From: Sulfuricaulis limicola
GTDB taxonomy: Bacteria; Pseudomonadota; Gammaproteobacteria; Acidiferrobacterales; Sulfurifustaceae
DNA: 64,000 nt
Assembly: GCF_002355735.1 (NCBI RefSeq)
Contig: NZ_AP014879.1
Span: 62,001 to 126,000 of the forward strand
Reading direction: 5' to 3'
The notes beneath the pieces were generated by a model. That model saw nothing but the letters and a program-made list of their open reading frames with translations. It made no database searches and was not told the origin of the DNA. Position numbers and translations under genes: made by a program. Below are positions 42,154 through 50,425 of this stretch, in pieces; the stretch's first letter is position 1; every line of letters begins with the position of its first letter.

Positions 42154-44421
<2,268 letters not shown>

Positions 44422-44528
44422 TCAAAATCCCGCCACTTCCGGCCAACGGCGTCACGGCCCGCCGTTCAATGAGACGCAGCCTAGGCCCGGACGTTTAATC
44501 GTTCCAATCGTTATTTCAAGTCAGTATG

Positions 44529-44543
44529 ATAGGAATTGCCTAT
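44529..44543. promoter_or_regulatory. OxyR half-site pair in the katG-oxyR spacer
   Basis: ATAG-N7-CTAT at 44529-44543 matches exactly the inner unit of the E. coli OxyR consensus and the LysR T-N11-A rule. A second such unit at the expected 7-nt offset is poor on either side. It lies 30 nt before the oxyR start, consistent with autoregulation and katG activation. Confidence 0.6.
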
Positions 44544-44572
44544 ATACGTTTTTGTCCCGCCGGAGGGCCGAT

Positions 44573-45541
44573 ATGAACCTGCGTGACCTCAAGTACTTCA
44601 TCATGCTCGCCGAAACCCGCCACTTCGGGCAGGCGGCGGCGCGCAGTTTCGTGTCGCAGCCGACGCTCTCGGGCCAGATCAAGAAGCTCGAGGACGAGCT
44701 GGGCGTAGCACTGTTCGAGCGCACCAAAAAACACGTGGCGCTGACGCCGCTGGGTGAGGCACTGCTGCCGCACGCGCGGCGCGCGGTGGAGGAGGCCGAG
44801 GCGCTGGCGCAGCTGGCGCGCGCCAGCCAGGACCCGCTCGCCGGGTCGCTGCGGCTCGGCGTGATCCCGACGCTCAGCCCCTACCTCATGCCGCTGGTGC
44901 TGGCGCCGCTCAGGCGCCAGCACCCGCAATTGAAACTGGTGCTCACCGAGGAGCTGACCGAACACTTGCTCGAGCGGTTGCACCGTCATGAGATCGATGC
45001 GGCGCTGATCGCAACCACGGTGAAGGATGCCGAGCTGGCGACGCGCGTCCTGTTCGACGAACCGTTCTGGCTGGCGATCCCGCGCAAACACCCGCTGTAC
45101 GACAAGGACAGCATCGTGCGCCGTGATCTCGCTCAGCTCGATCTGCTGTTGCTGTCCGAAGGCCATTGCCTGGCCGAACAGGCCATGGAGGTGTGCCACC
45201 TGCGCGAGCGCGCGCAGACCGGCGAGCAGGCCGATCTGCGCGCCGCCAGCCTCGACACCCTGTTGCAGCTCGTGGGCGCGGGCATGGGCGCGACGCTGGT
45301 GCCGGCGCTGGCGTTGCGCAGCGCCGCGATGACCGGCTCGGGCGTGGTGACGCGCCAGCTGGAAGTGCCGGACGCCTACCGGCGCGTGTCGCTGGTGTGG
45401 CGCCGGAGCTTCCCGCGCACGGCCGCGGTCGAGGCGCTGGCCGGGGTCATCCTTGCCCAGCTTCCGAATACCGTGCGCGTGGCGGGAGCGGCCCGGCGCG
45501 ACACGCGGTCTACACGGCCGCGCGCCGGTGCTCGTAAATAA
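44573..45541 (+). CDS. oxyR: Hydrogen-peroxide sensor OxyR (LysR family)
   Basis: This 322-residue LysR-type regulator has an N-terminal helix-turn-helix (HFGQAAARSFVSQPTLSGQIKKLE). The two sensing cysteines are at 199 and 208 (SEGHCLAEQAMEVC), the same numbers as in E. coli OxyR, so peroxide should form the activating disulfide. Start ATG 44573 follows GGAGGG. Its last 32 nt overlap the convergent RND gene, and the final 20 residues are an Arg-rich extension. Confidence 0.95.
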   Translation: MNLRDLKYFIMLAETRHFGQAAARSFVSQPTLSGQIKKLEDELGVALFERTKKHVALTPLGEALLPHARRAVEEAEALAQLARASQDPLAGSLRLGVIPTLSPYLMPLVLAPLRRQHPQLKLVLTEELTEHLLERLHRHEIDAALIATTVKDAELATRVLFDEPFWLAIPRKHPLYDKDSIVRRDLAQLDLLLLSEGHCLAEQAMEVCHLRERAQTGEQADLRAASLDTLLQLVGAGMGATLVPALALRSAAMTGSGVVTRQLEVPDAYRRVSLVWRRSFPRTAAVEALAGVILAQLPNTVRVAGAARRDTRSTRPRAGARK

Positions 45542-48500
45542 AGTACACCAGCGGGATCACGAACAGCGTCAGCACCGTCGAGGCGAAGGTGCCGTAGATG
45601 AGCGAGATCGCCAGCCCGCCGAACACCGGGTCGAAGGCCATGATCAGCGTGCCGAGGATGATGGCAGACGCCGTGAGCAGTATCGGGCGCAGGCGCACCA
45701 CGCCGGCCTGCAACACCGCCTCGTCGAGCGCGTGCCCGGCCCTGCGGTACTCGAGGATGAAATCAATCAGCAGCAGCGAGTTGCGCACCACGATGCCGGC
45801 CAGCGCGATCACGCCGATCATCGAGGTGGCGGTGAAATGCTGGCCCATGATCATGTGTCCCGGCAGCACGCCCACGACGGTGAGCGGGATTGCGCCCATC
45901 ACGATCAGCGGGATGGCAAACGAGCGGTAATAACCGACCAGGGTCAGGTAGATCAAAATGATCGCCACCGCGAAGGCCGAGCCGAGGTCGCGGAACACGT
46001 CCAGCGTCAGGCGCATCTCGCCGTCCCAGCGCAGCGCGTAGCCGCTGGTGTCCGGGTCGGCCATGAAGTACTGCGTCAGTTTCGCGCCCGACGGCAGCTC
46101 GTGGATGCGCAGCCAGTTCCACATTTTCAGCACCGCGTACACCTGCGAGCTCGAGCCGAGCTCGCCGCTGACGTAAACCACCGGGTACTGGTCCTTGTGG
46201 AAAATCGGCTTGGGCGCCACGCGGCTTTCGACGCGCGCGATGTCGCTGAGCGGCACCTGCCGGCCCTGCGGGCTGGTGAAGAATATCTTCGACAGGTCCT
46301 GCGGCCCGGCGCGATCGGCGGCCGGGACGCGGAAGCGGATCGGCACCGGCTCCTTCTCGAACTCGAGGTGCACGGTGCTGGCGTCGAGCCCGGCGAGGAA
46401 GGCGTGCAGCGTTTCCGCCACCTGCGCCGGGGCGATGCCGGCCAGCATGGCGCGCTCGCGGTTCACCACGATGCGGTGCTCGGTCCGGTCGTCGGTCACC
46501 GAGTCGTCGATGTCCACCACGTCTTCGGTCTGCTCGAACACCTCGCGCCGCAGCTCTTTCGCGATCTTGCGCAACTGTGCGTAATCGGGTCCGTAGAGTT
46601 CGGCCAGGATCGTGGCGCGCACCGGCGGGCCCGGCGGGTCCTCGACCAGCTTGATATTCGCGCCGGTCTGGCGCGCCAGTTCCGCAATCGGCGGGCGCAG
46701 CTCGAGTACGATGTCGATCGAGGACTCCCCGCGGTCGTGCTTGTTGCGCAGGTTCACGCGCACGTCGGCCACATGCGGGCCGGATTTGAGATTGGCCCCG
46801 CGCAGCAGACCATTGAAGTCGGCCACGCCGGCCTCGCCGACCGTGGCCTCGTAAGTCTCGACCTCTGGGTGCCGGCGCACGACGTCGCCGACCAGTCGCG
46901 CCACGCGGTCGGTTTCTTCGAGGCTGGTGCCCTCGGGCATGTCGATGGTGATGTTGAACGTGTTGGTGTTGTTCTTGGGCAGCATCTGGAATTTCACCCA
47001 GCCGAAGGCCGGCAGCAGCAACACCGCCAGCAGCACCAGACCGACGCCGAGGAAGAAACCGTTGCGCACCCCACGCGAAGCGATAAGCCGGCCCATCCAG
47101 CGCTCGTAGAACCGTTCGAGTCGCCCGTGGTGCTCCTGATGCTCGAGATCCTCTCCCCCGCGTACCTTGAGGAAACGGTACGCCGCCCACGGCGCCACGG
47201 TGTAGGCGATGGCGAGCGAGGTGAGCATCGCGATCGGCACGTTGAACGGGATCGGCGCCATGTACGGCCCCATCATGCCGGTGACCCAGAACATCGGCAG
47301 GAACGCGAACATCACGGTGAAGGTGGCGAGGTTGGTCGGTTTGCCGATCTCGTTCACCGCGGCGATCGCGCCCCGCAGCCGGTCCGCGCCCTTCTTGGCG
47401 TAGTGACGGAAGATGTTTTCGATCACCACGATCGAGTCGTCGACCAGCAGGCCGAGCGACAGGATCAGCGCGAACAGCGTGATGCGGTTGATGGTCTGGC
47501 CGGCGGCGAAGCCGACGGCCAGGGTGATGAACAGGATCAGCGGGATGGTGACGGTGACGATCGAAGCCGCGCGCCAGCCGAGGAAGAACACCAATAAAGC
47601 CACCACGCTGGCGATGGCGATCGCGAGGTGCTCCATCAGCAGGTTCACCGCAGCGTCGGCCTTGGCGCCGTCGTTGCGCGTGACGTTGACCTGCACGCCC
47701 TCGGGGATCAGCGTCGGGCGGATGCGTTCCAGCGTCGTCAGAACCGCGTCGGCGACCGTGACGGCATTGGTGCCGGCGCGCTTGGCGATGGCCACCGTCA
47801 CCGCCGGGGTCTCGTAATCGGCCACACGCTTGCCTGAAAATGCGGGGCCGTAGCCGATGCGGTGCAGGCGTTCGATCTCGCCCGGACCGTCGACGATGCG
47901 CGCGACCTGCTTGAGATACACCGGCCGGTGCTGCGACAGGCCCACCACCAGGTCGCCGACATCGGAGGCTGAGCGCAGGGCCCCGCCGGCCTGCACGCTG
48001 GCGACGCGGTTGCCGCCCACGAACGCGCCGGACGGGATGTCGACATTGGTCGCCGCGACCACGCGGCGTACCTCGGCAAGCGTGATGTTGTAGGCATGCA
48101 GGCGCTCAAGATCGAGATAGACGTTGATCTTGCGCGGCTCGCCGCCGTGCACGAACGAAAACGCCGTGCCCTCGACCCGTCGCAATTCCTCCAGCACTTC
48201 GTTGGCGATGCGGCGCATCTCGCAGGCGTCGCGCGTGGTGCACGAGAGCGAAATCGTGAGGATCGGCACGTCGTCCACGTCGGCCGGCTTGATCAGCGGT
48301 TGCAGCGTGCCGTGCGGCATGCGGTCGAGGTTGCTCATGATGCGGTCGTACAGCTTGACCAGCGAGTCCTCCTTGTTCTGTCCGACCTCGAACTGCACCG
48401 TGACCACGCCCTGCGAGTTCATGGCGACGCCATAGGTATGGTCGATGCCGGCCAGGCCCTGGAGAATGGCCTCCAGCGGCTTGACGATGAGCTGCTGGAT

Positions 48501-48704
48501 CTCGTCCGGCGTGGCGCCGGGCTTGGACACGATGACGTTGGCCGCCGGCACCACGATCGAGGGATTTTCCTCGCGCGGCGTCACCAGGAACGCGAACACG
48601 CCGGCGAGAAAGGCGAAGGCCATGATCAGCAGCGTCAGCTTGCTGTCGATGAAGTAAGCGGCGATGCGCCCGGCGATGTTCAATTCCTGGTTGTTTCTGG
48701 CCAT
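45510..48704 (-). CDS. RND-family efflux permease (AcrB/CzcA type)
   Basis: This 1064-residue inner-membrane antiporter has twelve predicted helices and two large periplasmic loops. The proton-relay aspartate pair is intact in LGLLVDDSIVVIEN (TM4). The N-terminal phrase TPREENPSIVVP places it among AcrB-like pumps of unknown substrate rather than typical metal pumps. The operon order is tolC-like, mini-adaptor, permease. The 3' end overlaps oxyR by 32 nt on the opposite strand. Confidence 0.9.
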   Translation of the reverse strand: MARNNQELNIAGRIAAYFIDSKLTLLIMAFAFLAGVFAFLVTPREENPSIVVPAANVIVSKPGATPDEIQQLIVKPLEAILQGLAGIDHTYGVAMNSQGVVTVQFEVGQNKEDSLVKLYDRIMSNLDRMPHGTLQPLIKPADVDDVPILTISLSCTTRDACEMRRIANEVLEELRRVEGTAFSFVHGGEPRKINVYLDLERLHAYNITLAEVRRVVAATNVDIPSGAFVGGNRVASVQAGGALRSASDVGDLVVGLSQHRPVYLKQVARIVDGPGEIERLHRIGYGPAFSGKRVADYETPAVTVAIAKRAGTNAVTVADAVLTTLERIRPTLIPEGVQVNVTRNDGAKADAAVNLLMEHLAIAIASVVALLVFFLGWRAASIVTVTIPLILFITLAVGFAAGQTINRITLFALILSLGLLVDDSIVVIENIFRHYAKKGADRLRGAIAAVNEIGKPTNLATFTVMFAFLPMFWVTGMMGPYMAPIPFNVPIAMLTSLAIAYTVAPWAAYRFLKVRGGEDLEHQEHHGRLERFYERWMGRLIASRGVRNGFFLGVGLVLLAVLLLPAFGWVKFQMLPKNNTNTFNITIDMPEGTSLEETDRVARLVGDVVRRHPEVETYEATVGEAGVADFNGLLRGANLKSGPHVADVRVNLRNKHDRGESSIDIVLELRPPIAELARQTGANIKLVEDPPGPPVRATILAELYGPDYAQLRKIAKELRREVFEQTEDVVDIDDSVTDDRTEHRIVVNRERAMLAGIAPAQVAETLHAFLAGLDASTVHLEFEKEPVPIRFRVPAADRAGPQDLSKIFFTSPQGRQVPLSDIARVESRVAPKPIFHKDQYPVVYVSGELGSSSQVYAVLKMWNWLRIHELPSGAKLTQYFMADPDTSGYALRWDGEMRLTLDVFRDLGSAFAVAIILIYLTLVGYYRSFAIPLIVMGAIPLTVVGVLPGHMIMGQHFTATSMIGVIALAGIVVRNSLLLIDFILEYRRAGHALDEAVLQAGVVRLRPILLTASAIILGTLIMAFDPVFGGLAISLIYGTFASTVLTLFVIPLVYFIYEHRRAAV

Positions 48705-48716
48705 CGGCGGCTGATC

Positions 48717-49079
48717 TTATTTCGTGGCGACGGGCGTGCCGTCGTGCACGGCGCCAAGCTCGCCGAGCACCAGGGTTTCATTGCCATGCAGCCCGCTCAG
48801 GATTTCAACCTGCGTGCCGCCGGTCCGGCCGGGGCGTACCAGGCGGAAACGCGCCTCGCCGGCCTCGTTGAGCACGAACACGCCGGGGATGCCGCCGCGC
48901 TCCACCAGCGCCGCGCGCGGAATGTTTATCCGCAGCGTTGCTTCCGGCTTCAGGTTCAGGACCAGCACCGGCCGCTCCACGCGCGGCAGGGACGGCGGCG
49001 CCTCCGGCGGTTTTTTGTCGCAACTGGCGAGCACCAGTCCGAGCAGAATCACGATCGCTACCCGCCGCGAGTGGCTCAT
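48717..49079 (-). CDS. Miniature RND periplasmic adaptor lipoprotein
   Basis: This 120-residue lipoprotein has lipobox VLASC (Cys20), a Pro-rich linker and then only the C-terminal part of a membrane-fusion protein (INIPRAALVERGGIPGVFVLNEAGEARFR...VEILSGLHGNETLV). The alpha-hairpin and lipoyl domains of normal adaptors (350-400 residues) are missing, yet the frame, ribosome site and 4-nt overlap with the tolC-like gene look intact. It may be a natural mini-adaptor or a fixed internal deletion. Confidence 0.78.
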   Translation of the reverse strand: MSHSRRVAIVILLGLVLASCDKKPPEAPPSLPRVERPVLVLNLKPEATLRINIPRAALVERGGIPGVFVLNEAGEARFRLVRPGRTGGTQVEILSGLHGNETLVLGELGAVHDGTPVATK

Positions 49080-50425
49080 TGGCCTTCCTCCGGCGGCAGC
49101 GGCAAGGTGCCTTCGGCGAGTTGCAACGCGGCCTGTCCGACTTCCAGGTTCACGCGCGAGACCAGCTCCTCGCTGCGCGCGTCGGTGTGGGAGCGTTCCG
49201 CCTGCAGCAGATCGATGAGCAGCGTGCGTCCCTGACCGTAGCGCTGCTTGACCAGGCGCACGTTTTCTTTCGCGTGCTCAGTGTTATCGGCGGCGGTGGC
49301 GTGCCGCGCCCGCGACTCGCGCAGGTTCTCCCTGGCCTCGCGCACGTCATGGCGCACGGTCTGTTCCAGCGACTGCACGCGCCATTGCGCCTCGCGTTCC
49401 TCGGCCAGCGCCGTGGTGATTCCGCCCTGGTGCCGGCCGCCGGCGTAGAGGTCGAGGCTGACTACACCCATGATGCTGGAAGAGTGCTCATCGAAACCAG
49501 GGTTGTCGTCGTACCAGTTGCTGGTGGCGATGAAGTCCACGCTGGGTTTGTGCACGGCGCGCGCCGCCTGCACCCGCGCCCGGGCGGCCTGGTGCACGGC
49601 GCGCGCGGCCGCCAGGTCCCGGCGGTTCGCCAGCGCGCGCGTTTCGATGTCCGCGGCATTGGCGGTGTCGGCGGCCGCGCCGGACACGGCGGGCGCCAAC
49701 GTGATCCCGGTCTCGAGCGGCAGGCCCATGGCGAGTTTCAACTGATTGCGCGCCGATTCGAGCCGGGTCGCGGCCTGCTCGCGCTGCGACTGCACTGCGG
49801 CGAGATTGACCTCGGCGGTGAGCTTGTCGGAAACGACTATTCTGCCTTCGCGCGCGAGCTGCGCCGTGGTGCGCGCATGATCCTGCGCGGCCTTGACGGC
49901 GTCGTCGGCGATGGCGAGTCCTTCCTGTGCCGCCTGAACATTCAGCCAGGCGCGCAGGGTCTGGAAGGCGGTGAGCTCGCGCGCGCGTTCATATTGCAAC
50001 CGGGCATGATTCTCCATCTCTTCGGCACTCGTCAGCGAAGCCGAGACCCGACCGCCGGCGTACAGCGGCAGGCGCAGCGCCAGTTGCGTCATGTGCAGGT
50101 CGCTGGTGCCCGGATGATTCAGGCGCGCGGGATCGAAGTCGGGCGTGGTGACGCTGCGCGTGTTGAGCTTGTCGGCGAAAGCGTCGAGCGGGTTGTTGCT
50201 GGAACGCGCGCTGTAGGAAAGTCCGAGGCTTGGAAGGCGCGCGCCTTGCGCCGCCCGGGTGCGGCCGCCGGCGGCCGCGACTTGTTCGCGCATGGCCAGC
50301 AGCTCGGGATTGTGCGCCAGCGCGTGACGCACCGCCTGTTCCCGGTCAAAGCTTTCGGCCGCCACCTGGGTGCCGAGGCCAAGCATCAGGCCCAGGGCAG
50401 CGGTCCGGATAATCCGGTGTGACAT
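49076..50425 (-). CDS. TolC-family outer-membrane efflux protein
   Basis: This 449-residue protein has a signal peptide (LGLMLGLGTQVAAES) and two repeats of long amphipathic helices with beta strands, the TolC/OEP pattern (first half FDREQAVRHALAHNPEL, second half LANRRDLAAARAVHQAA). It forms the outer-membrane exit duct for the RND pump encoded downstream. It overlaps the mini-adaptor gene by 4 nt. The substrate is unknown. Confidence 0.9.
   Translation of the reverse strand: MSHRIIRTAALGLMLGLGTQVAAESFDREQAVRHALAHNPELLAMREQVAAAGGRTRAAQGARLPSLGLSYSARSSNNPLDAFADKLNTRSVTTPDFDPARLNHPGTSDLHMTQLALRLPLYAGGRVSASLTSAEEMENHARLQYERARELTAFQTLRAWLNVQAAQEGLAIADDAVKAAQDHARTTAQLAREGRIVVSDKLTAEVNLAAVQSQREQAATRLESARNQLKLAMGLPLETGITLAPAVSGAAADTANAADIETRALANRRDLAAARAVHQAARARVQAARAVHKPSVDFIATSNWYDDNPGFDEHSSSIMGVVSLDLYAGGRHQGGITTALAEEREAQWRVQSLEQTVRHDVREARENLRESRARHATAADNTEHAKENVRLVKQRYGQGRTLLIDLLQAERSHTDARSEELVSRVNLEVGQAALQLAEGTLPLPPEEGQ

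Follow-up and report, generated by a model that had tools for sequence, protein, structure and literature searches.

Operons encoding an RND pump, a TolC-family duct and an adaptor reduced to a predicted membrane-proximal domain form an apparently old clade

Results

A full-length pump and duct flank a 120-residue adaptor gene

The window, by which we mean the whole 64,000-nucleotide stretch of the Sulfuricaulis limicola genome (G000) that was analysed and whose positions serve as coordinates here, carries three genes head to tail on the minus strand, with tolC upstream, a short adaptor gene in the middle and an RND pump gene downstream. The upstream gene (49076..50425, minus strand) encodes a full-length TolC-family outer-membrane duct of 449 amino acids with two OEP stretches and with tip residues R195 and R400 (equivalent to positions 148 and 366 of E. 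coli TolC), and the downstream gene (45510..48704, minus strand) encodes a full-length RND permease of 1064 amino acids that matches ACR_tran over residues 15-1056 and keeps its proton-relay residues. Between them lies an ORF (48717..49079, minus strand) that opens with ATG and encodes a putative 120-residue lipoprotein, which we call the mini-adaptor (a name also used for its homologues), with a signal peptide, the lipobox LASC ending at Cys20, a proline-rich linker and a membrane-proximal (MP) domain at about residues 33-120. Its start and the tolC stop share 4 nt (ATGA), and its end lies 12 nt before the RND start, so that a longer adaptor has no space in the operon; a first-pass annotation of this DNA had described an in-frame 120-residue adaptor coupled to its neighbours, with pump and duct at full length, and our analysis agrees on each of these points. 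Against the adaptor model TIGR01730 (RND_mfp) the mini-adaptor aligned only over positions 252-320 of 322, with 29.2 bits where the cut-off is 94.9, and Pfam returned only a sub-threshold HlyD_2 match to the C-terminal part of that profile (341-370 of 416). Two divergent genes adjoin the pump operon at window positions 42154-45541, presumably a katG-like catalase-peroxidase on the minus strand and a LysR-type regulator on the plus strand.

The mini-adaptor family alignment comprised 38 rows, namely the window's copy and 37 homologues from 37 other genomes, and revealed invariant columns at Cys20 (38/38) and at 13 further positions, with the invariant methionine being a product of our use of the lipobox as a guide in picking start codons. 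These aligned homologues and invariant columns rule out a chance ORF, and dN/dS values of 0.17-0.41 in ten pairwise comparisons, against 0.12-0.24 in ten pairs for the RND gene, reveal that the mini-adaptor is under purifying selection, with looser constraint than on its pump. A lipoprotein anchor is predicted from the cysteine found in every aligned mini-adaptor; retention in the inner membrane is assumed here, because the residue at +2 after the lipobox cysteine varies. The mini-adaptors of L172 and L173 stand outside the alignment, with profile matches that start only at position 43 or 48, and that of L058 (genome G004) was excluded because its ORF has just 69 amino acids and its match starts 30 bases upstream of the first possible start codon. 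This last copy (L058:1002-1241) has no in-frame signal peptide, which could reflect decay or an assembly error, as could the tolC of the operon in G005 (L036:4502-5852), which is split into two frames of 260 and 196 amino acids. Another locus (L050:6512-7033, in G031) holds an additional 173-aa ORF between mini-adaptor and RND gene that resembles what we take to be a DUF559-type endonuclease-like protein.

The mini-adaptor is predicted to fold as a lone MP domain

An AlphaFold2 model built from the 38-row alignment reached a mean pLDDT of 90.1, and VIA-align placed its residues 33-120 on TMexC (Z 14.1, rmsd 2.5 over 88 residues) in a superposition spanning TMexC chain residues 36-373, that is, the split MP domain of TMexC. 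AcrA, MexA and BesA followed with Z of 12-13 (12.6 for BesA), and Foldseek returned the same adaptor families, the fold table being confined to folds that Foldseek found. At the sequence level, the mini-adaptor profile aligned to both ends of full-length relatives (21-71 and 290-365 of L176; 44-95 and 315-387 of L215) and, with low scores at both ends, to residues 12-46 and 302-376 of AcrA. The C-terminal pieces of the relatives scored 54-61 bits against this profile, and their N-terminal pieces, which include the signal peptide, scored weakly (1.5-9.8 bits).

From the alignment coordinates we estimated that 230-240 residues are missing, corresponding to the beta-barrel, the lipoyl domain and the hairpin, and because only about 100 residues follow the cysteine there is no room for any of these parts. 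The full-length relative L176 matched HlyD_D23 and HlyD_3 above the cut-off and lipoyl models just below it; none of these models matched any of the 38 mini-adaptors, in which no Pfam beta-barrel, lipoyl or hairpin domain was found and HlyD_2 was the only match, in 10 of them. On the strength of the model, the mini-adaptor is an adaptor reduced to its MP domain, with the predicted fold of that domain alone. The earlier description of it as only the C-terminal membrane-proximal part of a membrane-fusion protein, with the hairpin gone, stands as to the hairpin and requires amendment otherwise, as the N-terminal MP strand is also retained and the lipoyl domain and beta-barrel are also lost.

The reduced operon is widespread in its order and appears to have arisen once

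Searching the 57 genomes of the order for the pump and for the mini-adaptor separately provided an independent test of their association: 39 genomes (S. limicola included) carry a mini-adaptor, 40 carry an RND at least 58% identical to that of the window, and 39 of these 40 have the mini-adaptor, the fortieth (G002, without a mini-adaptor match) being one in which the RND match starts at a contig end. Among the same 57 genomes we found no mini-adaptor without the orthologous RND. A sample of 370 genomes of the class contained at least 12 with a mini-adaptor, five from the order and at least seven others; these others, among the matches listed, were G136, G165, G233, G259, G321, G392 and G409, all with short ORFs beside RNDs that are 64-73% identical. 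The first-pass annotation had proposed looking for this three-gene layout in other genomes, and it was thereby found both across the order and beyond it. Within a phylum sample of 397 genomes, a mini-adaptor at E 1e-15 occurred in S. limicola only, with G109 and G684 being full-length frames, and a scan of named contigs with two short peptide patterns gave matches that include Sulfuricaulis, Acidiferrobacterales and Candidatus Muproteobacteria, although both of these searches can miss members.

At the level of loci, a mini-adaptor accompanies all 46 RNDs with 58% identity or more, whereas in 34 of the 35 loci whose RND identity is 54% or lower the adaptor ORF is 347-516 amino acids long, the other (L175) being cut by a contig end; 29 further named loci, six of which are among those 35, also have long adaptor ORFs (328-544 amino acids). 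This clean split is no independent test, because all 46 mini-adaptor loci were fetched by a mini-adaptor match and the full-adaptor loci mostly by an MP-domain match. An outer-membrane factor (OMF) gene stands beside the mini-adaptor and RND genes in all 46 loci, split in L036 and cut by contig ends in L041 and L058. In an RND tree, which was made by a quick method with a midpoint root and has AcrB on a very long branch, the 42 mini-adaptor rows are set apart from all others by a branch with an SH-aLRT of 100, and the adaptor label changes once (five open-ended mini-adaptor RNDs, L233 and L073, the same locus as L176, were left out). By this tree the mini-adaptors are of single origin, and because full adaptors occur only beside distant RNDs and the mini-adaptors form one clade, the loss appears to be old.

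These results also bear on whether the short gene is a recent deletion, a pseudogene or an assembly error; the first-pass annotation had noted that relatives carrying a full-length adaptor in this position would point to a recent deletion. Disturbed copies do occur, each as a single case (the 69-aa mini-adaptor ORF of G004 and the split tolC of G005), but 39 of the 40 genomes of the order that have the orthologous RND also have the mini-adaptor, which is under purifying selection and belongs to one old clade; this refutes the explanation and leaves it a negligible probability.

The pump appears intact while the duct has a changed tip

To see what accompanies the reduced adaptor, we compared both of its partners with those of full-adaptor systems. 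The residues D407, D408, R971 and T978 of AcrB are kept in 42/42 mini-adaptor RNDs, and the site of K940 is arginine in all of them, as it likewise is in full-adaptor relatives; because the proton-relay residues are kept, the pump looks active as far as sequence can tell. A compensating extension of either partner was sought and none was found, as neither the RND (against 8 full-adaptor rows) nor TolC (against 25) has a mini-adaptor-specific insertion of more than 2 residues at the threshold used. About 14 residues that the RND has lost behind TM7 are absent from the full-adaptor member L074 too, so that this loss is untied to the mini-adaptor. Fixed residues set the RNDs of the two groups apart at 15 sites, only two of them in the docking domain, where one DN-tip site is histidine in 40/42 mini-adaptor RNDs. 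Relaxed constraint on the docking domains was not seen, with the DN and DC ranks the same for mini-adaptor and full-adaptor systems, a result that does not discriminate between the models.

The duct differs most clearly at its tip. Arginine occupies both of the positions equivalent to 148 and 366 of E. coli TolC in 44/44 mini-adaptor systems and neither of them in any of 25 full-adaptor relatives, controls that are few and partly related and that mostly have Val, Leu, Ile or Met there; the residue preceding the arginine is glycine in 36/44 (before 148) and 44/44 (before 366). The 44 ducts exclude L036, L041 and L058, and TolC frames longer than 520 amino acids were trimmed to their last 470 residues. 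Fixed differences numbered 8 in 440 comparable columns, of which 4 fall in 14 tip columns (hypergeometric 4e-5, a descriptive value given that the tip interval was chosen post hoc and that the rows share one ancestor). The change at the tip counts as a single event, on a single branch. Residues D153 and Y362, which we take to be gate residues, are kept in 43/44 and 44/44 mini-adaptor systems, respectively. No charge partner for the new arginines is fixed in the 42 mini-adaptor RNDs. In S. limicola itself, two further OMFs (L093 and L095) have the arginine at 148 without that at 366.

Conservation of the tip is informative about an arrangement in which the RND pumps into the periplasm, with the mini-adaptor as a regulatory or stabilising subunit and TolC not physically joined. 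We consider this improbable: it is in keeping with the fact that neither RND nor TolC has any visible element to bridge the missing length, but the OMF gene accompanies mini-adaptor and RND genes in every one of the 46 loci, and the H7/H8 tip of the duct, compared with the remainder of TolC, shows higher conservation than in full-adaptor relatives (0.69 versus 0.39, a difference in rank reached by 0.7% of windows), which suggests a partner at the tip. The H3/H4 tip is weakly more conserved in mini-adaptor systems, with 8% of windows reaching its value.

Other adaptors in the same genomes

Another way to join pump and duct would be a borrowed adaptor, in which RND and TolC are bridged by an adaptor from another locus, either full-length or hairpin-bearing, and the mini-adaptor fills some of the RND sites or is a placeholder. 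In a split version of this explanation, the mini-adaptor would supply the MP domain to an MP-less adaptor, for example one that we take to be YbhG-like. Candidates for lending are common, since at least one TIGR01730 match above the cut-off was found in 36/36 mini-adaptor genomes tested (36 of the 46 known) and many of these matches span the whole model; S. limicola encodes one of MexA type (L098) and, in L093, an MP-less adaptor of 282 amino acids that matches TIGR01730 positions 18-247. Sharing of adaptors has precedent in AcrA and AcrE (PMC6975555).

Contrary to this, the tip residues that meet a hairpin are altered in both TolC repeats in 44/44 systems, and borrowing is weakened because G041, a genome that is 97% complete, has no TIGR01730 match covering the whole model in one piece. 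Its two matches beside RND genes cover only positions 167-321 or 175-321, the C-terminal half, two hairpin-bearing matches adjoin ABC genes, and one more is C89. G010 does not resemble G041 in this respect, since a 524-aa frame there (C165) covers positions 5-315 in pieces. The MP-less adaptor of S. limicola (G000:C1:2177237-2177959), considered as the missing half of a split adaptor, was rejected in that it belongs to a separate ABC operon that includes a TolC gene, from which it could act as a partner in trans. Overall, a borrowed hairpin is the main rival to the reading developed below, and in our assessment a rather unlikely one.

S. limicola also shows apparent adaptor reduction in several RND systems. 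A second hairpin-less adaptor of about 246-261 amino acids (L096:9826-14992; G000:C1 at about 2019825-2024991) has beta-barrel and MP parts with no space for lipoyl domain and hairpin and adjoins an RND (1057-aa ORF) and a TolC (438 amino acids) that has no tip change; G010, G011 and G041 likewise encode adaptors that align to this stretch of the model. A CusB-like adaptor of 293 amino acids with a heavy-metal-binding domain (L097:4720-9995; G000:C1 at about 458719-463994) appears to lack the length for a regular lipoyl domain and hairpin and adjoins a CusA-like RND and an OMF. Two OMF-RND pairs (L094:5092-9871 and L095:5474-9903) have no adaptor gene between or beside them within the stretches read.

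Discussion

Taken together, we interpret these operons as an old RND pump variant of single origin in which an MP-only lipoprotein serves the RND and TolC is engaged without the canonical hairpin, a reading to which we assign a probability of roughly 0.55. Comparison with relatives shows that an ancestral full-length adaptor lost about 230-240 residues from its middle, comprising the beta-barrel, the lipoyl domain and the hairpin, such that its N- and C-terminal MP parts are now linked by a short loop; the lipoprotein is predicted to fold as a lone MP domain. By analogy with work on AcrA, its most likely place is at the porter domain of the partner RND, in the periplasm, the site occupied by adaptor MP domains, and there it may aid the access of substrates or signal the loaded state. 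Two AcrA studies place RND-binding boxes 6-9 in the MP domain (PMC8934357) and tie that domain to substrate vetting (PMC6975555, PMC8934357). Binding to the RND and coupling would then be the likeliest role of the mini-adaptor, and TolC would be contacted in some other way.

How TolC is engaged may be reflected in its tip. PMC5404916 describes TolC G365 and T366 as contacting the AcrA hairpin tip in AcrAB-TolC, and the tip change in the mini-adaptor systems favours a pump that no longer uses the canonical hairpin; because both hairpin-meeting residues became arginine, TolC probably docks without it. The simplest route would be for TolC to meet the RND directly, at its docking domain, without an intervening adaptor tube and with the lipoprotein in an allosteric or substrate-vetting role alone, a specific version that we hold tentatively, at somewhat below even odds. 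Several observations count against our preferred reading, namely that boxes 1-5 (in the beta-barrel) are lost in the mini-adaptors, that the site of the critical AcrA Gly363 (box 9) is glycine in 24 and proline in 14 of 38, that there is neither special conservation of the RND docking domain nor a fixed charge partner for the new arginines, that the tip change arose just once, that two other OMFs of S. limicola have arginine at 148 while the TolC of the hairpin-less L096 system is unchanged, that most mini-adaptor genomes hold other full-length adaptors that might serve the pump, that the residue at +2 after the cysteine varies, and that the G004 copy has a disturbed N-terminus.

If TolC does dock directly, the jobs of an adaptor, bridging and coupling, would be separable and bridging would be dispensable. 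In present models of RND pumps, the hairpins and lipoyl rings of the adaptors are what builds the sealed tube from RND to TolC, and the pumps described here may join the two membranes differently. Their full-length sister systems offer a comparison through which the question of what an adaptor must do becomes directly testable.

Compared with adaptors of the AcrA, MexA and TMexC type, the mini-adaptor has in common the MP domain, the lipoprotein anchor and the place in the operon, and differs in having no beta-barrel, lipoyl domain or hairpin. We found no report of an MP-only RND adaptor among open-licence PMC papers. Modular loss is likewise seen in EmrA, an MFS adaptor that, according to PMC4158417 and PMC13328181, has no MP domain and keeps the rest, of which the mini-adaptor would be the mirror image. 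The nearest precedent is BesA of the Borrelia BesCAB system (PMC3807786; PDB 4KKS-4KKU), which is likewise a hairpin-less lipoprotein adaptor of an RND pump and whose authors report related sequences from further spirochaetes and, rarely, from proteobacteria. BesA and the mini-adaptor share the gene order OMF-adaptor-RND and an MP domain that superposes (VIA-align Z as given above), and in both TolC recruitment must differ from the usual. They differ in that BesA retains the lipoyl domain and beta-barrel (codons 27-318 were cloned), whereas the mini-adaptor is without both, and in that BesC is described with a disrupted gate system (PMC4446572), whereas the TolCs of the mini-adaptor systems keep D153 and Y362 and change both tip residues. 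That same paper regards hairpin-less assemblies such as that of BesA as perhaps the biggest challenge to the tip-to-tip model. The mini-adaptor would be a stronger, proteobacterial case than BesA, with every bridging domain gone, the reduced state kept over much of an order and beyond, and the TolC tip changed in parallel.
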